Shown piece after piece: positions 2,098-37,811 of a stretch of 64,000 nt of DNA. Every line of letters begins with the position of its first letter. Position 1 is the first letter of the stretch. The DNA is taken from IMG/VR virus record IMGVR_UViG_3300044568_004391, positions 1 to 64,000 of that record. One strand, given 5' to 3'. The notes under the pieces were generated by a model. That model had not been told where the DNA came from. It ran no database searches and saw only the letters and a list, made by a program, of their open reading frames with translations. This DNA comes from a virus. The position numbers and the translations under genes were made by a program.

Positions 2098-4311
2098 ATG
2101 GCATTAGTCAATTGTTATAGGTGGGAAAAGTGTACAGACTCTTCGTCGTACATATGGGTTTCTACCGCTTATACAAGTCCTGATAATGTCGTTTATTACA
2201 GTGGTGAATGTTATGAAGTAAATTATTCAGTTACTGATTTTCAAGAACAGGTAATAATTTCAGCAAGTACATTTTATTCTGATTGTCCTACTTGTTTATC
2301 TTTGAATCCCTCGGCAACACCGACTCCAACACAGACTCAAACACCAACAATAACACCAACCTTAACGAGAACTACTACACCGACACCAACCATAACAAGG
2401 ACTCTTACCCCTACTAAAACATCAACACCAACAGTTACTCCCACTATAACCCCTACTGTTACGTCAGGTTTGGTTTCTGCAATTTTTAGTAATTGTTGCA
2501 CTGGTGATCTGATATATGCATTAACATATCCTTGGATCAATACTAGTTCTGAAATTGTTGTTGTTAGTGGTGGGACTTGTTTCAGGTTTGTTGAATATGA
2601 TGGTAATAACAACGGTGTTGACTACTTAGTTGACTTACAATATGTAAGTTGTTCGTTTTGTTTGGGTAATTATCCCTGTTTTCCAACACCTACCCCTACA
2701 GTTACTCCAACCATAACACCTAGTCCTTTACCTTGTAGTGATACTTCTTTTATATCTACACTCAGTGATTGTTATGAGGATTTTTGTATCTCGAATTTGG
2801 AAGGTCCATTATCTGTCTATAACGGAACATATAATCTTATAACGGGTACTGAATTATATAATTTACCTTACTACGAAAATACAGGAGGTACAGGTTACGT
2901 TTATTTCAAAGTAAATAAATGGTGTTTGTCTGATACACCAGGAGGATCGTGTATCATACAAGGTCAAAATAATCCATTGGATCCATGTCCTGCATTCCAC
3001 GAGAGTTTTTTCTATTCAGGTATTTGTATAACAACAACTACAACTACAGACCCGTGTAATGTTATTGATTTCAATGCGGTTTTCAATTGTGAAACCCCAA
3101 TAAATACCGCAACATTAACCCCAACACCTACCCCAACTCCAAGTCCTACCCCTTATGTTGATCGTTGTAGAGATGTTGGATTGACCGCAATTACTTATAC
3201 CACCACCACAACTACACTTCCTGTAACATCACCAACACCCACACCAAGCCCTCAACCACCGATCACAATTAGTGGAACTGTTGATTTTGAAATCTGTTGT
3301 TCTGATTTCATTTGTCCGGAAGTTTATAAGTTAAGAAATTGTACATCGGGTGAAATATTCTATGTTTCTCAAAGACTAATCGACTCGAGTGAAACGTATG
3401 TCCAAACAGGTCAAACATTTGATGCGATTGTTAATGGTAATAGAATTTGTTATGAATATTTGGGAAGAGAGTTGGGATCACCAAACATTTATTTGGATGA
3501 AATACTTTCAATTTACAACGAATGTGATCTTTGTCTCGTAACACCCACACCAACAGTTACACCAACATTAACTCAGACACCAACTGTCACACCGACTTTA
3601 ACACAGACACCTACGGTTTCGAGTTCATTTAGTACAGTAACACCAAGTATTACAACTACCCCGTCAAAAACACCAAAACCGACATCTACACCTACACCTA
3701 CCGTAACACCAACTCCACCTCATAAAATCTATGTGTATCAAGCATGTTCACCTGTCACCACTGCTTATGATTTAGTAATTCAGACAGTCGAGGTGACGGG
3801 TGTTACTTTAAATCAAACATTCAGAACAGGATACAATCAACCATGTTTCCAATATCTTGGAGAATATAATTTAGGTGAGTACTTTGTTAATCCTCAACTC
3901 AATGCTTTCGAATATACAGGAAATTACTTTGGTAATATAAATCCTTATTATGTTTTTGAAAGTTGTAACCAATGTCAGAATCCATTCCAATTCTCAATAA
4001 GAAGAGGAAATACAAACAATAATACAATATACTCATACCAGTTAAGACAGTCATATGACCAAGTAAACTATACCTCTGTGAATCTTGGATTTTTCTTCGA
4101 AGGTTCTATGTACATAAGAGTACAAAATCCCACTTCATCACAGGCGGGTCCACCTGCAAAATTCACAACATTAAGAATTTACGATGATGACACAAACGAA
4201 TTGTTGAATACATATAATTTAAATAATGTAACTTCTTATGAATTCCCTTATACTTTATTAAGGAATATCAGAATTGAAGTAACAATAAACCAACCAACGT
4301 CAGAAGGATAA
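2098..4311 (+). CDS. Virion surface protein with cysteine modules and Thr/Pro linkers
   Basis: 737 residues. Compact cysteine-bearing beta modules alternate with mucin-like linkers of Thr-Pro with Val, Ile, Asn and Gln. Module 1 spans residues 4-66 and ends DCPTC; a linker covers 71-122; module 2 is about 125-188 and ends SCSFC. Further modules end ECDLC and SCNQC. Each module has an early C or CC, a mid GxC(Y/F), and a final aromatic-xxCxxC. The C-terminal ~100 residues are beta-rich and lack linkers. No signal peptide, as expected of a phage particle protein. It heads a run of four such genes. Fibre or decoration protein is inference; the architecture is seen directly. Confidence 0.82.
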   Translation: MALVNCYRWEKCTDSSSYIWVSTAYTSPDNVVYYSGECYEVNYSVTDFQEQVIISASTFYSDCPTCLSLNPSATPTPTQTQTPTITPTLTRTTTPTPTITRTLTPTKTSTPTVTPTITPTVTSGLVSAIFSNCCTGDLIYALTYPWINTSSEIVVVSGGTCFRFVEYDGNNNGVDYLVDLQYVSCSFCLGNYPCFPTPTPTVTPTITPSPLPCSDTSFISTLSDCYEDFCISNLEGPLSVYNGTYNLITGTELYNLPYYENTGGTGYVYFKVNKWCLSDTPGGSCIIQGQNNPLDPCPAFHESFFYSGICITTTTTTDPCNVIDFNAVFNCETPINTATLTPTPTPTPSPTPYVDRCRDVGLTAITYTTTTTTLPVTSPTPTPSPQPPITISGTVDFEICCSDFICPEVYKLRNCTSGEIFYVSQRLIDSSETYVQTGQTFDAIVNGNRICYEYLGRELGSPNIYLDEILSIYNECDLCLVTPTPTVTPTLTQTPTVTPTLTQTPTVSSSFSTVTPSITTTPSKTPKPTSTPTPTVTPTPPHKIYVYQACSPVTTAYDLVIQTVEVTGVTLNQTFRTGYNQPCFQYLGEYNLGEYFVNPQLNAFEYTGNYFGNINPYYVFESCNQCQNPFQFSIRRGNTNNNTIYSYQLRQSYDQVNYTSVNLGFFFEGSMYIRVQNPTSSQAGPPAKFTTLRIYDDDTNELLNTYNLNNVTSYEFPYTLLRNIRIEVTINQPTSEG

Positions 4312-6312
4312 ATGCCGTATTTTCTAAATATATCACAAATATTAGGTACACCTCCTTTCAACGTTTATGTTTGTGACGAATTTGGTTCGAATTGTGAATT
4401 TATTGAGACAATAAATGAATCTGATTTACCATTTTCTTTCCAATTACCGTCGGCTTTTACAGAATCATCTTATTGTGTGTCAATTATTGATGATCTTGGT
4501 TGTGATATAAATAACTGTATTGCTGTAACACCAACTAATACACCGACCAATACTATTACACCCTCTATCACACCAACAATCACGGTGACTCCAAGTCAGA
4601 CAAGACCAATCGTTTATTATGCAGGTGTTGAGTGTTGTGATGGAACAATTATTCAATTATATGATATAAATGGAGATGATATAGTAAATGATGGTGAGTT
4701 TTTCTATTTATCAGGTTTTTCAGTTTCAGATCCAAGTCAGATTATAACAGGATGTTATGAAATAAGAACAACGTTGTCTGGTGGAACAATTTATGAGGTA
4801 GAAATTTACGGAGATGGATCTGCTTCACCATATACTGGTTGTTCGGCGTGTTTAACCGACAGAGTTTTGGCGTGTTCATTAACACCAACCCCAACAAACA
4901 CTGAAACACCAACTCCTACTCCAGGTTTGTCACCAACTCCGACACCTACGAATACTCAAACACCAACTGAGACTCCAACCGAGACACCCACAAATACACC
5001 TACAGTCACTCAAACACCGACCAATACACCTACAGTCACTGAAACACCGACTAACACACCTACGACAACTATAACACCAACAAATACAATCACGCCAACA
5101 ATCACAAAAACACCGACACAAACCCCGACAAATACGGTGACTCCAACAATTACTCCAACTCAAACAAGTACACCTGCAAATACTGTAACTCCTACTATTT
5201 CAGAAACACCTACAAATACCCCCACAAATACGGTTACTCCGACCCTGACACAAACGCCTACAAATACCCCCACAAATACGGTCACTCCAACCCTGACACA
5301 AACACCTACAAATACTCCAACGAATACTGTTACACAAACGGTTACTGAGACACCTACCAATACTCCAACTAATACTATTACACCTACTAATACTCAAACA
5401 CCGACTATTACACCTAGTATTACTGCAACAGTAACGTCAACAGTAACTCCAACAGTAACTCCAACTCCGACAAAGACAGTGACGCCAACAACAACTGTCA
5501 CACCCACAAGAACTGTAACACCAACTAATACTCCTCCACTCAACACCTACACTTTCCAATCTTGTGCAACAAAACTGAGACCTGACCTCATAGATGTTGT
5601 GTACAATTATTCGGCTTTTAATTTTACAACTAGTACAGTCTATTCAACAGGGAGTACAGTAGAGGTTTCTATACTCATCAGTGCAGGATGTCCGCTTTGT
5701 AAGTTTTCAGTAGATGAATGTTATTCTGTGATCACATATGACGCATCCAAACCAACCAAGCCTGCGAATTATACAGTAGGAACGACGGCAACATGTGGGG
5801 CTGGTAAGTGTGATTTAACATATATTGGATTACAAGAATGTGGGACTACTGATAAATTTTTGAGTTCGGCTAATATACCAAACTTAACTGCAAATACATG
5901 GACTGTGGGTAGTACCGCAAGAATACCAACAATACTACCGATTGCCCCAACATATCTATCAGGTCATGAATTCTCAGGAGTTTGTTTTCAGATAATAGCA
6001 CCTCAATCATCATTAAATCTATCACAGACTGGAATATTCGGAGATGAATGGGCACAGAATGAAAGTGGTTTCTTAAAAACTTCAAGTTGTGTGAGTACGA
6101 ACTGTGATTCATGTAGAGAAGATGTTATATTAGTCAATACTGATGATTCACCTCAGACGGTTAATTATACTTTATGTGATGGAGTTGCAACATCTTCGAC
6201 TATACCAGCAGGGAATCAAATTACACAAACATCTTGTATTAGTGTAGTTTCGTTTATGAATAATGCACCTGCTACAGGACAGGTATTCTTCTCTGGTGGT
6301 ACGGCATGTTAA
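4312..6312 (+). CDS. Virion surface protein, PKD/SprB-like N-terminus, long Thr/Pro stalk
   Basis: 666 residues, starting immediately after the previous stop. Residues ~1-75 form a domain with [11 protein letters not shown] near the start and a final D-x-x-G-C, the pattern of PKD/SprB-type beta domains. A short linker leads to a cysteine module ending GCSAC (~102-190). Then comes a stalk of over 200 residues (~193-410) made almost only of Thr, Pro, Asn, Val, Ile and Gln, including three 16-residue tandem repeats. The C-terminal ~250 residues are cysteine-rich (CPLC, CDSC). An extended or glycosylated stalk carrying a head domain is inferred. Antisense frames over the stalk are artefacts of the repeats. 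Confidence 0.82.
5209..5352 (+). repeat. 48-bp tandem repeat, three copies, in frame
   Basis: Three consecutive 48-bp units (5209-5256, 5257-5304, 5305-5352) encode 16-residue repeats of the type [16 protein letters not shown]. The first two are nearly identical; the third has diverged, especially at its 3' end. The unit length keeps the frame, so copy number could change stalk length without disrupting the protein. Confidence 0.85.
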
Positions 6313-6315
6313 TAC

Positions 6316-6322
6316 TATTTAT
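6316..6322 (+). promoter_or_regulatory. TATTTAT phage promoter motif
   Basis: TATTTAT with 5 bases between it and the ATG at 6328, in one of the few intergenic gaps of this operon. A transcript would have almost no 5' leader. Confidence 0.5.
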
Positions 6323-6327
6323 GTAAA

Positions 6328-7272
6328 ATGCAAGTAGAAATAACTAACATATCAGGACAGGAACCATACGACATTTTTGTGTGTGATATAGACGCATTGA
6401 ATTGTATTTGGATTGATAATATTTCTGATAGTCAATTACCATTTTATTTCGATATTCCAAGTATATTTCAAACTTATGGAAATAATTTTGTCGTGAAAAT
6501 GGTAGACTCCAATTTATGTCAGTTCACAACTACCTCTACCATGGCGTCACCTACTCCGACACCAACAAATACACAAACACCAACAATTACACCAACAAAT
6601 ACAGCGACACCTACCCTTACACCAACAAATACAGCGACACCTACCCTTACACCTACTAATACAGCGACACCTACCGTTACACCTACCTTTACGAGTACAT
6701 CTACACAAACACCTACACCTACCAAAACATCAACACCTACTACAACACAAACACCTACAGTAACTCCCACAATTACACCAACAATCACAACAACCCCAAC
6801 CAATACGATTACACCATCAGAAACGGCGACATCAACACCAACGCCAACTCTAACACCTACAACTACAGAAACACCCACAAATACTCCAACAAATACAGAG
6901 ACACCTACAAATACACCAACAAACACAGAGACACCTACAAACACTCCAACAATAACGCCTACCACATCAATTACACCAAGTATAACACCTACCATTTCTT
7001 TAACACCGAGTATAACACCTTCTCCGAGATGTGATTGTTATTCGGGAGTTACAATTACATTCGAATGTACTACTGGAATCTGTCCAGGAAGTGCTAATTT
7101 TGGTTTCTATGGTTGTGACCAAGAAACCTATGATGAAGTAACTGTGGATGTAAATGATTCATTACAAGTGAATAGGTGTATGTATTTACCTTCCTTGGAC
7201 GTAGTGTCATATATACCACCTCAATCTTCTTGGTCTTATAGTCTGAGTGGAGCAACAACATGTTGTGAATAA
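6328..7272 (+). CDS. Virion surface protein, SprB/PKD-like domain plus Thr/Pro stalk
   Basis: 314 residues. The N-terminal ~70 residues match the first domain of the gene at 4312 in pattern: [11 protein letters not shown], a second Cys, LPFYFDIP, and a terminal D-x-x-L-C. Residues ~74-235 are a Thr/Pro stalk including a 10-residue tandem repeat. The C-terminal ~80 residues carry eight or so cysteines (CDC, CTTGIC, CDQ, CCE). It is a shorter paralogue of its neighbour. Likely a displayed particle protein; the binding target is unknown. Confidence 0.82.
6591..6680 (+). repeat. 30-bp tandem repeat, three copies, in frame
   Basis: Units at 6591-6620, 6621-6650 and 6651-6680 encode [10 protein letters not shown]-type decapeptides. 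The first two DNA copies are identical and the third differs at a few third-codon positions. This is a coding repeat, not a CRISPR: there are no spacers. Confidence 0.85.
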
Positions 7273-7284
7273 TGAATAAAGAAA

Positions 7285-8979
7285 ATGAGTATATTCAATA
7301 ACATAAACGACTGTTCACCAATAACGATTTTTCCTTTGGGTGTTGAATGTGTATCAACGAATACATCAACACCAATATCTACGGACGGATCTTTGAGTTT
7401 GAATATAACAGGAGGAACACCGCCTTATGATATTACTTGGAGTAATGGTGAATCTTCACCAACCATCTTGAATTTAGCCGCCGGATCATATTCTGCAACG
7501 ATTATTGATTACTATGGTGATTATACAGCATCAACTACTTGTGTTGTTGGATCCGAAACTTTTGATTTATACAAATTCACATCTTGTCCTGATAGTGCAA
7601 CAACAATCTATCTCAGTGCGACAACAACTAATTTGACCGTAGGTAAGATATATCAATTATCTAATTTTATTTCGGGGAGTTGTACAAATATAGTTTTAGA
7701 ATATACAGACTTCATACCCGTTGGATCGCCCGCACAACTTTCTTCACCTTTATATTTGGGGATGAAAAATTTTAGTAATGGAATCACAATTGAATATTAC
7801 TACTCTAATGGAAACATATATGAATACTCATATCCTTCTGTTACTTATTTGGGATCTTATATAAGTATTTTTAATGCTCCTTTACAATTACCGAGTAAAC
7901 AAGATTTAATCTGTAATGGTGTCACCTACGATTCATTTGATTCGACTTGGTTCGCTTATCCAAACATATCTTATTTGGGTAAAACATATACTTTATGGGT
8001 TTTAGCAACGGCAGGTGAATTGGCTAATTCTGAAGGAATTCAAACGGTAGTTTTCTGTTGTGATGACTCTTTGACTCCAAATTGTTGGACTTATTTGGGT
8101 CAGGAATATTATACGGGTCAAACTATATCAAATAACTCGAGCTATTTCTATGATTTTGATTCTTGTGTAGAATGTAATCCATCACTATCCGATGTTCCTG
8201 ACACTATTTGTTTGAATAAGGGAATTCAGACATCACCAACACCCACACCAACGATCACACCAACTCCAACCGTAACTCCAACTTTAACTGCTACACCCAC
8301 TGTCACACCGTCTATCACGCCAAGTACAAGTGCTAATAATCTTGTTTCCTTCTATTCATGTTGTGGATATCAATATTTCAACGTGAATACAACCGAAACG
8401 GTATTCCCAATCGTTCCTAATGTCGGTGACACTCAGATTGTTGTATTTACAAATGAATCATCTGCAAATCCATTCTTAAACAATAAGTGTTTCACAAGGG
8501 TTGCGTTCAATTCTTCATATACTCTGAAGAGTTTAAGTTCGGCAGGAGCGGTTGTCTTTGATAATACAATCTATGGATCTTGTGAAATTTGTGACGGGGT
8601 TTCTCCTTGTATTCCTCCATCACAATCCCAAACGCCTACGGTGACACCAACTCCTACGGTCACACCATCAATAACAGTTACATCCACTCCAACTCTTACT
8701 CCTTTCTTTACACCATCTAATACACCAACAAATACACCAACTCCAAGCTTAACCCCTACAATTTCATTAACACCTTCAATAACCCCTACCAATACTGGAA
8801 CCCCAACACAAACACCTTCTATAACACCAAGTTCTTCGGTTACACCAACTATAAGTCCAAGTCCGACAATAACTCCATCTATAACTCCAACAATTACTCC
8901 ATCCCCTCTCTTCTATTTACAACAGGAAAATGAATTCTATATCCTTCAAGAGGATGGAAGTAAAATAATTATCACCTAA
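7285..8979 (+). CDS. Virion surface protein with SprB-like repeat and cysteine modules
   Basis: 564 residues. Residues ~20-90 closely follow the SprB repeat pattern of gliding Bacteroidota: GSLSLNITGGTPPYDITWSN, then a LxAGSYxxTIxDxxG stretch and a closing Cys. Next come cysteine-rich beta regions with CxxC ends (FDSCVEC), a linker (~318-348), a module ending GSCEIC (~350-435), a second linker (~440-545), and a short tail containing YILQEDGSKIII. The SprB resemblance is read from the motif. A cell-surface-binding role is inference. Confidence 0.82.
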   Translation: MSIFNNINDCSPITIFPLGVECVSTNTSTPISTDGSLSLNITGGTPPYDITWSNGESSPTILNLAAGSYSATIIDYYGDYTASTTCVVGSETFDLYKFTSCPDSATTIYLSATTTNLTVGKIYQLSNFISGSCTNIVLEYTDFIPVGSPAQLSSPLYLGMKNFSNGITIEYYYSNGNIYEYSYPSVTYLGSYISIFNAPLQLPSKQDLICNGVTYDSFDSTWFAYPNISYLGKTYTLWVLATAGELANSEGIQTVVFCCDDSLTPNCWTYLGQEYYTGQTISNNSSYFYDFDSCVECNPSLSDVPDTICLNKGIQTSPTPTPTITPTPTVTPTLTATPTVTPSITPSTSANNLVSFYSCCGYQYFNVNTTETVFPIVPNVGDTQIVVFTNESSANPFLNNKCFTRVAFNSSYTLKSLSSAGAVVFDNTIYGSCEICDGVSPCIPPSQSQTPTVTPTPTVTPSITVTSTPTLTPFFTPSNTPTNTPTPSLTPTISLTPSITPTNTGTPTQTPSITPSSSVTPTISPSPTITPSITPTITPSPLFYLQQENEFYILQEDGSKIIIT

Positions 8980-8982
8980 AAA

Positions 8983-8990
8983 TATTTATA
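8983..8990 (+). promoter_or_regulatory. TATTTATA phage promoter motif
   Basis: TATTTATA ends 3 bases before the ATG at 8994, in the 14-base gap after the Thr/Pro protein gene. Transcription from here would give an essentially leaderless mRNA for the C1q-like fibre gene. Confidence 0.5.
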
Positions 8991-8993
8991 ATT

Positions 8994-9563
8994 ATGCCAG
9001 ATTTACCAATATCATCCTTACCTGAATTAACAGCATTGACGAACAATACAGAATTTGCTGTCGCTTCAAATGGGGTGACTTATAAAGTAAAATCCGTAAA
9101 TTTATCTTCAGGTAATTTGGTTGGGTCTTTTATTTCACTTTCATCTCAAACAGCATCTTCAACTACCGTTGCGTATTCAATGAGTGCTAACACAACAACC
9201 CTTTCAAGTGGAGTTACTGTGGTTGATGGGTCTAAATTTACGGTGGCTTCAGCAGGAACTTTTAATATTCAGTTTTCAGCACAAGTCGAATCTTCAGGTG
9301 GTGGTAATGCTCAGACTGTGGATATTTGGCTTTCCAAAAACGGATCAAATGTTGATTATACAAATACTCAAATTGTAGGTAACTCAAACAACGGTCGTAG
9401 TGTTGCTGCTTGGAACTTCGTTGAAACAAATACATCTGGTGGATTTTTCGAAATAAAATGGAGAGTGGATGATGTTAGATTAGGATTTGTTTATCAAGGA
9501 CCCAACACAAATCCTACAAGACCCGCAATTCCCTCTGTAATCGTAACCGTAACTCAAGTATAA
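8994..9563 (+). CDS. Fibre protein with C1q/TNF-like head
   Basis: 189 residues. An N-terminal ~40-residue module starts MPDLPISSLPEL and includes GVTYKV; it is shared with the next gene and with the tailspike at 37836, and is probably an attachment domain. The rest reads as a C1q-like jelly roll: SAGTFNIQFSAQ, VDIWLSKNG, AAWNF, FEIKW, and a closing PSVIVTVTQV. Such heads trimerise at phage fibre tips. Virion role inferred from domain type and position; the neighbours are also fibre-like. Confidence 0.78.
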   Translation: MPDLPISSLPELTALTNNTEFAVASNGVTYKVKSVNLSSGNLVGSFISLSSQTASSTTVAYSMSANTTTLSSGVTVVDGSKFTVASAGTFNIQFSAQVESSGGGNAQTVDIWLSKNGSNVDYTNTQIVGNSNNGRSVAAWNFVETNTSGGFFEIKWRVDDVRLGFVYQGPNTNPTRPAIPSVIVTVTQV

Positions 9564-9986
9564 ATGTCAGATTTAACAATATCCCAACTCACGAGTGTTG
9601 GATCATTATCCAACCAAGCGTTCTTTCCATTGTCACAAGATGGATCCACATATAAAGTTGCTTTTAGTGCTTTGACCGATTCGATTTCGGGAACGAGTTC
9701 CAATAATTATGTAACAACTGGAATCACCACAAGTCAAACTTTGAGTTGGGACAAACAATATTGGGGAATTTCGGGTACTACAAATGTTGATGTTACTTTA
9801 CCTTCTTTGGCGGGTAAAAACGGATATTTTTTAATCGTAAAGGATGAGGCAGGAATTTGCGGAACATATAGAATTAGGATTACTCCAACAGATGGATTAA
9901 TTGATGGGAGTTCTTATGTTGATATGAACATAAACAATATGTCATTAACTATAATGACAAGAAATAATAATTGGTATATAATATGA
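9564..9986 (+). CDS. Small fibre protein with the shared attachment module
   Basis: 140 residues, starting directly after the previous stop. Residues 1-40 repeat the attachment pattern (SDLTISQLTSV, then DGSTYKVAFSAL). The remaining ~100 residues are beta-rich, with VDVTLPSLAGKNGYFLIVKD and a terminal NNNWYII, a form often seen at the C-terminus of small phage fibre or structural proteins. Overlaps the next gene by ATGA. No catalytic motif. Confidence 0.78.
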   Translation: MSDLTISQLTSVGSLSNQAFFPLSQDGSTYKVAFSALTDSISGTSSNNYVTTGITTSQTLSWDKQYWGISGTTNVDVTLPSLAGKNGYFLIVKDEAGICGTYRIRITPTDGLIDGSSYVDMNINNMSLTIMTRNNNWYII

Positions 9987-11194
9987 GCTACATTTTTAAC
10001 GATCAAATATCATATTCAGATTCAGTCAATTTGGATGCTTTTGGAAGACTTAGAGTCTCTGAATTGACAAGTTTAATTGAGATAAAATATGAACAGGATA
10101 AACTACCAAATCAAGTTGATGAGGTTGTTAATGGAAGTGCGACTTCTACCCTTGAAGCGGTAAACGCATGTGTAATAATGACTGTATCAACAACAGGCGA
10201 TTATGTCATTAGACAATCAAAAGAAAGAGGAATTTATCAACCTGGAAAAAGTCAGTTGTGTGAATTCAGTTTCTCGGATTTTGAATTGGATACCAATGTA
10301 ATTAAACGAGTTGGGTATTTTTCATCTTCAACTGCGGCAACATACGACTCACAATTTGATGGGTTTTTTCTTGAAAGTAATGGTATTAATAATGAAGTAT
10401 CATTTCAAATATGGAAGACAGGAACATTGATTTTGAGTGCGGCGACTGATACTTGGGATTCAAGTCAAGTAGATCCATCAACCATTGATTGGTCAAAAAC
10501 AAATTTGATGGTAGTAGATTTTCAGTGGTTGGGAGTAGGAAGAGTTAGATTTGGATTAAATTTGAGTGGAAATACTTATATCTTCAAAACAAACTCAGGA
10601 ACAAATAACCTTTCTGATGTTTATATGACATCACCTGATCAACCTATAAGATATGAAATTAGATCCTCTGGAGGAACTGGATCATTCCATCAAATATGTT
10701 CTACTATTAGTGATGAAGGAACAAGAAATACAATCAAAAGGACGGGATCATTATCTCAAATAAACACGGTCACCCTATCATCTTCGGGTACTAAATATCC
10801 TTTCATTGGGTTGAGAGCGTCTCCTATTTATGATCAAGTTACAATTCAGTTAACTAACTGCCAAGTACTCAACACATCAAATGATAACTTCTTAGTTACA
10901 GTTGAGATAAATCCAACCATTTCATCAGGTATGACATATTCAAGTGGAAATACTGCTGAATGGCAATACTCTTTAGGTAATGGTGCTCAGACTGTAACAT
11001 CGGATGGTGTGATTATTGCAGGATTCATCGGTGAAGCTGGAACTTCAGCAATAACTAATATAGAGTTAAATGAAAGTGAAATTAAACCTGGAAGAAAAAT
11101 TGATGGTACAGTAGACCAACTTTGGGTATGCATAACACCACTCGGGGCTGCCGCTACATTTATAGGTAGTACCAACTTTACATACGAAAAATAA
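9983..11194 (+). CDS. Virion structural protein (DAFGRLRVS family)
   Basis: 403 residues from the ATG at 9983, which overlaps the preceding TGA; a TTG at 9971 is in frame but less likely. The N-terminal DAFGRLRVSE (about residues 15-24) is a motif I associate with tail or baseplate-associated proteins of large phages. The rest is beta-rich, Ser/Thr/Gly-heavy, with no enzymatic motif. It overlaps the next gene by one base (TAATG). The particle role is inferred from composition and context. Confidence 0.7.
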   Translation: MSYIFNDQISYSDSVNLDAFGRLRVSELTSLIEIKYEQDKLPNQVDEVVNGSATSTLEAVNACVIMTVSTTGDYVIRQSKERGIYQPGKSQLCEFSFSDFELDTNVIKRVGYFSSSTAATYDSQFDGFFLESNGINNEVSFQIWKTGTLILSAATDTWDSSQVDPSTIDWSKTNLMVVDFQWLGVGRVRFGLNLSGNTYIFKTNSGTNNLSDVYMTSPDQPIRYEIRSSGGTGSFHQICSTISDEGTRNTIKRTGSLSQINTVTLSSSGTKYPFIGLRASPIYDQVTIQLTNCQVLNTSNDNFLVTVEINPTISSGMTYSSGNTAEWQYSLGNGAQTVTSDGVIIAGFIGEAGTSAITNIELNESEIKPGRKIDGTVDQLWVCITPLGAAATFIGSTNFTYEK

Positions 11195-12759
11195 TGGCAA
11201 CAAGTAGTTTATCCATATGTAATATTCAATTTGAAAAGTCATCCACGACTTTTAATGGGAAACCTACGTGGGTAAATACTGGTCAAAATTTAACAATAAA
11301 ATGGGATACTACCAATGATTGGTGGTATATAGAGGGTTGGTCTCCAGGTGAACAAATCTTGACAGGAAATACAATCGCACCTATTGGAGAGTGGATTCCT
11401 GTTGGACCGGCAGATTATTTTTATAGTTCTACGGGTGAAGCTTGTGCAGAATGTATTAGTTCATTTATTTGTTTGAGTGATGGAACCACACAATATGAAT
11501 TTGAGGTGACATCAGATATTGTCAATGGAAGAAACACTTGGACTTCAGGAAGTTATACCATACAATGGGATTCGATCAACGCATATTGGTTTGTTAATGG
11601 TTGGGATCAGGAGGGTCAGATAATAAATACAGTAAATATCGACAATCCATTGGGTGCATGGACACAAGTTGGATTGTCTGTACCCCAATCTTGGCTCGCA
11701 ACAAATGAGGCATGTCCTGAAGTTTCTTTTATATCTACAGTTAGTGTTAATAATGTGAGTTGTCAAGGATTCTGTAATGGTAATATTACGATTATACCTG
11801 AGGGAGGACAAAGTCCTTATTTATATTCAATAGACAACGGTATAACATTCCAAAATTCAAATATTTTTAATGGATTATGTGAAGGGACAGGTGAAATAAT
11901 TGTTAGGGATTCTAACGGAGTGGAAATTACTGTACCTTTTGTTTTATTGTACGATTCGGAGGTTTCAAGTTACACACTCAATTTAGTTGAATTTTCAATT
12001 TTATTGATTAATCAAAATAATTATAAGAAAAAACAATACAATTATAATATTGTTGTATCACCTTCTTTACCTTTTGGATCTTCCTTAACATTCAATATCA
12101 AGGGAAAGAATGTAGATACACTCAAAGAACCGGGATCTGCAAATTTCCAACATACATGGACAAAAATAGTGAATGGTGTAACTTCTGTAATACCTGAAAC
12201 AAGTTCACAATCCACATCAAAAACGAGAACTTGTGCTTCTGGACTTCAGAACGAAACAACTACAACTTACAATTATTCACAAAATTTATTAAGTTTAAAT
12301 TCTACAACACCATTTATTCAAGTAATTTGTGTTACAGATATTCAAATAGTGACCAATTCTTCAGATTCTTCTTGTCCAACTTATGCTGAAACAAAAACAA
12401 GTTTACAAGTTTCGAATGTAAAATTAAATAATGTACCTTGTTCAACAATCGTTGTACCACTTACTACGACTAACGAAGATATAATTTATTTACAAGGTAG
12501 TACTTTGTTGACCAATACTGCATTTTCAGTAATGTATTTAAACACACCCGAAGTTGACGGATATTGTGGTGATGCGTATCCTTCATATTCAAACATTATA
12601 TATACAGAACCAAATGTAACAACCTTGAATTCAGGAGTCGTTGTGTATAGTGATTCATCACTTAATAATTACGTACCTTTTGGAACTTACTTCCAACTAA
12701 ATGGTATAGTATATCAAGTTTTTCAAAATGGTTTCCTAACTGTTTATTGTAGTCAATAA
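11194..12759 (+). CDS. Virion protein: duplicated Trp-rich domain plus SprB-like repeat
   Basis: 521 residues. Two ~75-residue N-terminal repeats share the pattern NG-x-x-TW, IxWD, a Trp-rich strand, GW, GxW-x-x-VG and a closing Cys. Residues ~178-250 form an SprB-like unit (VSCQGFCNGNITIIPEGG, SPYLYSIDNG, then NGLCEGTGEIIVRDSNGVE). The C-terminal half is beta-rich and unassigned, with a Cys near the end. It lacks Thr/Pro stalks. Probably a displayed or fibre-linked protein; this is inference. Confidence 0.75.
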   Translation: MATSSLSICNIQFEKSSTTFNGKPTWVNTGQNLTIKWDTTNDWWYIEGWSPGEQILTGNTIAPIGEWIPVGPADYFYSSTGEACAECISSFICLSDGTTQYEFEVTSDIVNGRNTWTSGSYTIQWDSINAYWFVNGWDQEGQIINTVNIDNPLGAWTQVGLSVPQSWLATNEACPEVSFISTVSVNNVSCQGFCNGNITIIPEGGQSPYLYSIDNGITFQNSNIFNGLCEGTGEIIVRDSNGVEITVPFVLLYDSEVSSYTLNLVEFSILLINQNNYKKKQYNYNIVVSPSLPFGSSLTFNIKGKNVDTLKEPGSANFQHTWTKIVNGVTSVIPETSSQSTSKTRTCASGLQNETTTTYNYSQNLLSLNSTTPFIQVICVTDIQIVTNSSDSSCPTYAETKTSLQVSNVKLNNVPCSTIVVPLTTTNEDIIYLQGSTLLTNTAFSVMYLNTPEVDGYCGDAYPSYSNIIYTEPNVTTLNSGVVVYSDSSLNNYVPFGTYFQLNGIVYQVFQNGFLTVYCSQ

Positions 12760-12796: not shown

Positions 12797-14965
12797 ATGT
12801 CATATATAGTTAAAAATACAGGAGCAATTATTAATACACGTCTCACTGACGCGGGAAGAAGAAAATTATCTCAAGGTAATTTCAATATCTCTTATTTTCA
12901 AATTGGTGATTCCGAAGTTTGTTATAATTGTACGACCAGTTTGGATGAGTCAACACTTAATATCCTCACACCTCAATATAACGCACAAAATGATTCAGGT
13001 CTCCCTCAGAGTAATAAGGGTCACATAAAATATCCATTTTATCTTGATCCCACCTCAGGTACTACATGGGGAATACCTTTTGAAAATTCAGGAATTGATG
13101 ATTTTTTCAATCAGACGATTTCGAGAGGTCCATTTACAGGAAGTAGTTTCCAAACCTCCACTGCGTACACCACCAACTCTAATTACTCATTTTCTTTTTC
13201 AGGATTATCAGGATCAACAAATTTAGAAATTATATACAATGTTATTTGTGATTCTGATGAACTTCCCCAAGTAGGACAAATCTTAGCACTATTTTATGAC
13301 CCCAATGGTGGATCTGGTTGTGGATCTATAACTGGATCATATATGACAGAATTTTACACAATTACAGGTACTGGTACTACAAGTTTCTTTGTCGATAGAC
13401 CACTTCCAAATTATACCTTGTCGGGAATAAGTGGTGATGCAAAAATCTTTATATACCCGTCCGGGTATACTCCTTATTATGATTCTGTAACACCTGAATC
13501 ATATTGGCCTGATGAAGCATTTGCTTTTGATTTAAATTGTACGATCAGAGATGAAAGACCACTAGTTTGGAATCTTAATATTCCCTGGTCAGAGGATCCT
13601 GCGGGATTGTGGAGTTCTACTTTTGTTGGATACAACAATTTTGCAAGTAGAACTTATCTCGGAACAAAAGAATACTTGGGATATCAAACAAATTCAGCAC
13701 AAAGTGATACGGATTCAACATATTACTTTAATAGTTTTTCTGAAAAGATAATCCTTTCACCGAGTGATCAAAAAGCTATTGGTATTATTCATTATACAAA
13801 CAATGAAATCAATAACAACTATGGTGAGAAATTCGCAACTGAGCCATTCGACCCATCTGATTCGGGAGCGACAGGCCAAGCAAGAAATTTGAAAATCAAA
13901 ATGCCACTTCTTATGTGGCACAAAAATCCAAACAAAACCATTGGTGAAACATTCTATATTGACCCACCCGGTTTTGATGACTTGGATCTTTTGACGCCAT
14001 ACTATATCCGTTCAAATGTGAACAACAATATGAACGATCCAGGATTGAGGTACTATCACCTTTGGGATACACACGAAAATTCTACAGGTTATCCAAATAG
14101 AATTGGAAAAGTATGGCCCGACCTTAAGATTGTCACCATTGACGATGAGGAAATTTTGGCATCTATGTCTTGGATCTCAAAGAGAACTTGGACATTACCC
14201 GCCCCAAGATTATCTCTCACCGCACCAAACCTATGTAATGTTGATGCAGGTGATGATGTTGGTATTATGACAGGAACAGGTCAGACGATGTGGGTTACTT
14301 ATATCTTTGACAATGATTTTGGAACGGCGGGAATGAACTGTAACTATTTTACATCCGTTCAAGGAACCGATCCGAGTTGTCCGCCTGATACTGCGAATGT
14401 CGGAGTTAGATTCGGGGATGAATTCCCATTCTTAAATACCGATTTTGTCACCACCCCGTCGGGATTCTGTGCTAATGAATTCTATATCTTGGCTCAACTT
14501 GTCAATACGGGTGAAAGACCTGTTGCGGATGCGTGGAAACAGATTGACTTCACGGGTGATATTAGTTTGGTTAACGGATTGATTCCTGTAAGTGGAATTA
14601 CCGGTCAAACATTCTTTATTACTCAGGGTAATTACGATGCGGGAACCACATTCAATTTGAATAATTTTATTCCTTTGATTCAAAGTGGAACCACAAGACC
14701 TTATATCAACTTTGGTGATGAATACATTTTCTTCGGAAATGTGGAAACTGATATCCAAGCAACGGTATATGAGATGAGATATTATGTAAATCTACCTTAT
14801 AATCAATTTACTGTATCGACGAATCCCACGTTAAATGGTGATGATATTTACGTTACCGAAATTGGACTTTACGATTCTGACTATGATCTTATGTTTATTT
14901 CGAAGCTTGAATCTCCGCAATTAAGACAAGGGGTTCAACAATTCTTAATAAAGTACGATTTTTAA
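12797..14965 (+). CDS. Large tail/baseplate protein with collar-fibre-type N-terminus
   Basis: 722 residues. The N-terminus contains NTGAIINTRLTDAGRRKLSQ, with LTDAGRRKL at residues 17-25, resembling the N-terminal domain of phage tail-collar fibre proteins. The same segment continues with IGDSEVCYNC. The body is long and beta-rich. A C-terminal part with DIYVTEIGLYD and FLIKYDF also fits fibre-anchoring proteins, whose domains use 'eiglyd'-like strands. Probably a baseplate-to-fibre connector; confident that it is structural, less so about its exact place. Confidence 0.74.
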   Translation: MSYIVKNTGAIINTRLTDAGRRKLSQGNFNISYFQIGDSEVCYNCTTSLDESTLNILTPQYNAQNDSGLPQSNKGHIKYPFYLDPTSGTTWGIPFENSGIDDFFNQTISRGPFTGSSFQTSTAYTTNSNYSFSFSGLSGSTNLEIIYNVICDSDELPQVGQILALFYDPNGGSGCGSITGSYMTEFYTITGTGTTSFFVDRPLPNYTLSGISGDAKIFIYPSGYTPYYDSVTPESYWPDEAFAFDLNCTIRDERPLVWNLNIPWSEDPAGLWSSTFVGYNNFASRTYLGTKEYLGYQTNSAQSDTDSTYYFNSFSEKIILSPSDQKAIGIIHYTNNEINNNYGEKFATEPFDPSDSGATGQARNLKIKMPLLMWHKNPNKTIGETFYIDPPGFDDLDLLTPYYIRSNVNNNMNDPGLRYYHLWDTHENSTGYPNRIGKVWPDLKIVTIDDEEILASMSWISKRTWTLPAPRLSLTAPNLCNVDAGDDVGIMTGTGQTMWVTYIFDNDFGTAGMNCNYFTSVQGTDPSCPPDTANVGVRFGDEFPFLNTDFVTTPSGFCANEFYILAQLVNTGERPVADAWKQIDFTGDISLVNGLIPVSGITGQTFFITQGNYDAGTTFNLNNFIPLIQSGTTRPYINFGDEYIFFGNVETDIQATVYEMRYYVNLPYNQFTVSTNPTLNGDDIYVTEIGLYDSDYDLMFISKLESPQLRQGVQQFLIKYDF

Positions 14966-37361: not shown

Positions 37362-37811
37362 TTGCCAGGATTTATAGGTCAAATCAACATTGAGGGAGGA
37401 ACCATTACAGGTTCGAGTTACACATACGACGTAATTGTAAAATCCTGCTCTGAAACTGTATGGGTTCAAATTGGTAATTCTGTTCCCTATTCTTCTTTTC
37501 CCGTTTTTTTTGATGTATTTCAAACGTTGGGTGAGACTTATTGTTATGACTATAATGTAATTGAAGAGAATTTTTTAGCTCAATGTGAGGGAACGGTGAA
37601 TTTCCCAACGCCAACACCAACAATAACCCCAACTATTACCCCTACGGTTTCAGTAACTCCGACAATAACACCTACACATACTAAAACTCCAACAAAAACA
37701 CCCACAGTTACACCAACGAGAACTCAAAATTACGATTGTAATGTTCTTGGAACTGAAAACATGGACAACTTATCGGCGGAAAATGGAGATGAATTATGTA
37801 CGCTTCCATGA
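37362..37811 (+). CDS. Small virion protein, PKD-like domain plus Thr/Pro tail
   Basis: 149 residues, TTG start (no ATG in frame near). The N-terminal ~80 residues resemble the first domains of the genes at 4312 and 6328 (YTYDVIVKSC, W-x-QIGNS, SSFPVFFDVFQTLG, final Cys). A Thr/Pro linker follows (~82-123), then a short tail with CNVLGTENMD. It looks like a fibre protein shortened to one domain and a stalk. Confidence 0.72.
   Translation: MPGFIGQINIEGGTITGSSYTYDVIVKSCSETVWVQIGNSVPYSSFPVFFDVFQTLGETYCYDYNVIEENFLAQCEGTVNFPTPTPTITPTITPTVSVTPTITPTHTKTPTKTPTVTPTRTQNYDCNVLGTENMDNLSAENGDELCTLP

Follow-up and report, generated by a model that had tools for sequence, protein, structure and literature searches.

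Two proteins encoded at 7285 and 11194 in the window (bases 1–64000 of the 151,984-bp (~152-kb) IMG/VR virus record) each contain an SprB domain, and the SprB arrangement directly upstream of a conserved gene at 12797 is a real and widely conserved feature. We consider it fairly probable that the two correspond to the halves of a two-SprB adhesion protein of the virion surface, here split over two genes and encoded upstream of a probable tail or baseplate gene. This proposal is based on the domains, their position and conservation, an old phage-specific lineage, and virion-annotated homologues in flavophages.

SprB domains in the 7285 and 11194 proteins

The S1 protein (564 aa; 7285–8979, plus strand) consists of an N-terminal SprB domain (S1; 7348–7548, plus strand), a middle region, PT-rich linkers, and a C-terminal LQQENEFYILQEDG tail. 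The S2 protein (521 aa; 11194–12759, plus strand) has W-rich repeats followed by an SprB domain (S2; 11731–11934, plus strand) and a β-rich domain. With the Pfam SprB profile (PF13573, curated cut-off 28 bits), a six-frame search over the whole 152-kb record gives exactly two matches, one in each of these proteins, at 7378–7452 for S1 (31.6 bits, E 2.7e-8) and 11737–11841 for S2 (31.2 bits, E 3.7e-8). Both are above the cut-off, which is reached in none of 14 control genomes, and the domains scored in isolation give 31.7 bits (S1) and 29.2 bits (S2). In full-length scans, the 7285 protein has no SprB match and the 11194 protein stays below the cut-off at 25.6 bits, and the result therefore depends on removal of the PT-rich parts or on a frame-by-frame search. 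The PT-rich parts probably hide the domains in the full-length scans.

A sequence-only reading of this DNA had described SprB/PKD-like repeats in five regions, quoting motifs that are indeed present where it placed them. The SprB assignment is borne out for the 7285 and 11194 proteins and fails for the N-termini of the proteins at 4312, 6328, and 37362, which show no SprB profile match, and the PKD component falls away entirely, since none of these proteins gives a match to a Pfam PKD model at E ≤ 10. Each window protein contains one SprB domain, and there are no tandem repeats in either. No T9SS signal domain is matched in the S1 and S2 genes, and no hydrophobic signal peptide is seen in their N-termini, as judged by eye.

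The structure model of the 11194 protein is confident for residues ~90–430, S2 included. Its best viral Foldseek matches are phage proteins named “SprB repeat [uncultured Caudovirales phage]” in UniProt, e.g., A0A6J5LDA4 (E 8e-16; an automatic label only), and a protein of Polaribacter phage P12002S (8e-6), while a PDB fold search returns low-TM matches only (≤0.17 by query length), which were set aside. By eye, an 80-aa W-rich repeat (NGkxTW..tIxWD...WyieGW..GxI...n..P.GxW..vG) occurs twice before S2, and once in most relatives. The C-terminal tail of the 7285 protein, FYLQQENEFYILQEDGSKIIIT (8910–8979), resembles the tails of free-standing 95-aa proteins in relatives, e.g., L012:1775–2053.

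The N-termini of the 4312 (E 5.2e-20) and 6328 (E 1.2e-19) proteins, which had been read as weaker SprB variants, are clear members of a separate 65-aa family with the consensus GTSPYDIWVCDxxxxxC...VKIIDxNGC. In the former (4312–6312, plus strand), the domain is followed by a long PT-rich linker and a Cys-containing C-terminus; the latter (6328–7272, plus strand) is a paralogue with the same N-terminal domain, a PT-rich linker, and a short C-terminus. The family, which apparently lacks an existing name, has ~110 matches across the related loci, where it is frequently encoded as a stand-alone protein of 93–99 aa, and in one relative (L008:8872–9954, plus strand) the domain sits at the N-terminus of a fusion with DUF285 that has no PT-rich linker. 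The domain is confidently modeled as a small β-sandwich (pLDDT 87) with no significant fold match in the PDB (best E 0.06; a DUF3244 Ig-like domain gives TM 0.65 at E 0.1). Alignment with SprB by hhalign covers 19 columns at a probability of 92.6, and a few family members match the phage SprB model at E 1e-4 to 9e-3; judged from these comparisons, a relationship with SprB is possible but weak. The PT-rich protein at 37362–37811 (plus strand) lies outside both families; with about 1 bit or less against both models, it was rejected as a variant of either.

Conserved arrangement and link to the virion

Directly downstream of the S2 gene is the anchor gene (722 aa; 12797–14965, plus strand), which shows ~50% identity among relatives, and for which there is no significant database match and no homologue in GenBank phages. 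Through this gene, at least 283 relatives were found in IMG/VR, mostly freshwater, uncultured viruses of Bacteroidota, and 80 loci were fetched; searching IMG/VR directly from the 11194 protein found none. SprB matches are present in all 50 relative records searched, above the cut-off in 45, and these records had been chosen by the anchor and not by SprB. At 90% anchor identity the loci form 42 non-redundant groups, the window among them (11 fetched loci missed by the anchor-recognition motif are left out of this count), and SprB is found just upstream of the anchor in all 42 and absent in none. In 58 of 61 loci, no more than 120 bp separate the end of the SprB gene from the anchor. Both SprB domains reside in a single gene in 36 of the 42 groups and are split over two genes in the remaining 6, the window included. 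The 7285 and 11194 genes thus match opposite ends of a single gene, whether ancestral or the product of a fusion, and the change may have run in either direction. Many relatives also encode a protein in which ~7 SprB domains in tandem are combined with a conserved domain at the C-terminus, the latter absent from the window record. Single-repeat SprB scores in relatives reach 45 bits, and the modules fused to their SprB proteins vary, including DUF285 (LRR-like) and β-propeller families.

The two SprB genes of the window flank a virion structural protein of the phrog_1645 type (9971–11194, plus strand; E 8e-48), with homologues in T4-like cyanophages and matches in 131 GenBank phage records. 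Also between them are two small proteins of 189 and 140 aa (8994–9986, plus strand) that have similar N-termini and no significant family match. S2 homologues in Cellulophaga phage Nekkels_1 and in P12002S are labeled virion structural, which we take as annotation (Nekkels is described in PMC8776804), and in both phages the gene is the second after the tape measure. The phrog_1645 neighbor and these flavophage homologues make it probable, as the sequence-only reading had proposed, that the SprB domains belong to virion proteins of a Bacteroidota phage. Moreover, a profile built from the phage SprB domains matches solved Ig-like virion proteins, namely the neck whisker protein gp24 (9occ, 7.6e-8) and T5 pb10 (5lxk, 7.7e-5), as well as 8zvi (1.5e-4).

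Both ends of the anchor protein weakly resemble the tail-collar fibre domain of P2 gpH (PF12571; hhalign probability 0.7), and with end-joined anchor sequences one of eight members matches PF12571 in register at E 0.061, where the control P2 gpH gives 1e-58. A P2 gpH-type fibre is a lead only. Because of this weak resemblance and the flavophage gene order, we infer that the anchor is probably a tail or baseplate gene. The SprB-type (Ig-like) proteins would most likely be exposed on the outer surface of the virion on flexible PT-rich linkers, where they may act as adhesion modules that keep the particle bound to surface polysaccharide of the Bacteroidota host before DNA injection.

Host, origin of the domains, and alternative readings

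The host phylum is very probably Bacteroidota, since the record encodes a T9SS signal domain, has few Shine–Dalgarno motifs (before 8 of 72 starts), and shares homologues with flavophages. The signal domain, CHU_C (PF13585, E 3.3e-17), ends a secreted 712-aa protein (record 123040–125178, L174:141–2279, plus strand), where it follows GCTDPxAxNYxPxAxxDDGSC repeats. In a whole-record search CHU_C is matched once only, at 124906–125169, and Por_Secre_tail nowhere in the 152 kb. Among 30 records examined for T9SS cargo, the window’s own included, CHU_C occurs in 6 and Por_Secre_tail in 5. Besides pinning down the host phylum, such phage-encoded cargo suggests that phages change the set of proteins secreted by infected gliding bacteria. 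No near-identical DNA or protein relative was found in GenBank phages for the first 25 kb or for 7285, 11194, or 12797.

The record also encodes two secreted M43-type metallopeptidases (L003:10098–11501, plus strand, record position 74098; L005:15616–17724, plus strand, 119616), and a third, similar N-terminus is present at 84001. Five proteins have long PT-rich linkers (2098–8979 and 37362–37811), among them one matching phrog_15511 in the same cluster (2098–4311, plus strand). An FkbM methyltransferase gene (272–1117) lies beside the PT-rich protein genes, and a sugar-gene cluster was noted by eye at 107–118 kb of the record. Given these genes, glycosylation of the PT-rich linkers is conceivable.

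The sequence-only reading had further suggested that the phage took its SprB domains from the host. If they had been captured from a host gliding adhesin, they might mimic it by binding the same ligand, and the setting is suggestive in that the host is a T9SS bacterium and that a phage tandem repeat has its best bacterial matches exclusively in Bacteroidota (80 of 80). The window domains nevertheless group with other phage domains. In a comparison that included 1,070 bacterial repeats, from loci chosen for their similarity to a single tandem repeat, 43 of the 44 S1 domains have a further S1 as nearest neighbor, and 46 of the 54 S2 domains a further S2. A 93-domain tree places the S1 domains, the window's included, in a single clade free of bacterial members (SH-aLRT 99); S2 domains and tandem repeats show clustering there, but neither set is recovered as a single clade. 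On account of these same-position neighbors and the S1 clade, S1 looks old and vertically inherited within phages, and S2 likewise, though less surely. Recent host capture of S1 and S2 was accordingly rejected, within the limits of a bacterial sample picked by one tandem repeat; an ancient common origin of phage and bacterial SprB is possible. Host-derived SprB looks a better fit for secreted proteins of some relatives than for the window genes, which have neither a visible signal peptide nor a T9SS domain match. In one relative (G005; L175:2256–4715, minus strand), a secreted 819-aa protein ending in CHU_C carries two SprB domains whose nearest neighbors are bacterial repeats. The same is true for all 13 clear SprB repeats of a signal-peptide protein in LR756502.1, a 642-kb uncultured phage (L092:4722–9734, plus strand), which could reflect either a recent acquisition or host sequence caught up in the assembly. 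Another relative (G048; L176:886–2172, plus strand) encodes a signal-peptide SprB protein whose nearest counterpart is this LR756502 protein. Further, the E. coli phage protein T5 pb10 reaches 25.5 bits with the SprB profile, about the same as the full-length 11194 protein, and a borderline SprB match is therefore no proof of a gliding adhesin. For the window genes, we regard mimicry by capture as unlikely.

The score of T5 pb10, close to the SprB cut-off, and the decoration and whisker proteins found among the PDB matches also bear on a plainer reading, in which the domains may be mere spacers, generic Ig-like modules that stiffen or stabilize the particle and resemble SprB by convergence or deep ancestry. 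The single-repeat scores and sevenfold arrays of the relatives, near the bacterial SprB pattern, speak against this, and the varied LRR-like and propeller modules fused to the SprB proteins there fit binding better than bracing; a spacer role is rather unlikely. Alternatively, the proteins could act outside the virion, on the surface of the infected cell or secreted from it, in aggregation or superinfection control. Related phages do encode T9SS-secreted proteins, but the window proteins carry no recognizable export signals, their genes flank a virion gene, and their homologues are virion-annotated, so that we consider this very improbable. A dual use of one adhesin module is very unlikely; in this reading, an old virion part would let the particle attach to, or ride on, the gliding surface or SprB filaments of the host, and some phages would in addition make a T9SS-secreted, host-derived SprB protein during infection that changes surface adhesion of the infected cell.

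Comparison with known systems

Ig-like modules on phages are a known kind of feature, and the SprB-type variant and its fixed arrangement were not found described in the literature searched, where we also found no analysis of the position, conservation, or origin of phage SprB. Modular Ig-like virion-associated adhesins of the BACON, PKD, and Big2 types are known from gut Bacteroidota phages, with SprB unmentioned (PMC13370021). The window proteins are likewise modular and Ig-like and from a Bacteroidota phage, but differ in being of the SprB type and from freshwater. That an SprB-type domain keeps a fixed place across this large group of uncultured Bacteroidota phages speaks for a basic step in their adsorption, and S1, S2, and the anchor provide concrete targets for work on these phages, of which the collections searched contain no cultured member.

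As for SprB of Flavobacterium johnsoniae and related Bacteroidota adhesins (PF13573), the isolated S1 and S2 domains score above the curated cut-off and follow the GGtxPYxYxW...aGtYxvxVxD pattern of the family, which in relatives also occurs in tandem arrays of ~7. Unlike the gliding adhesins, the window proteins have a single domain each and show neither a visible signal peptide nor a match to a T9SS C-terminal domain. The domains are also placed in a phage structural cluster and belong to a phage lineage separate from bacterial SprB. By profile, T5 pb10 and the neck whisker protein gp24 carry an Ig-like domain of the same type, and both are located at the virion surface, as the window proteins most likely are. 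In addition, T5 pb10 has an N-terminal domain of its own, its best-scoring model there is Ig_3, and its gene context is different. Close counterparts among cultured phages are Nekkels_1 gp50 and P12002S gp28, which share the S2-type SprB domain; for Nekkels the similarity extends beyond the domain, and for P12002S there is a structural fold match. Their genomes are smaller (50–53 kb) and S1 was not found there, but these cultured flavophages can serve as stand-ins for the S2 domain.
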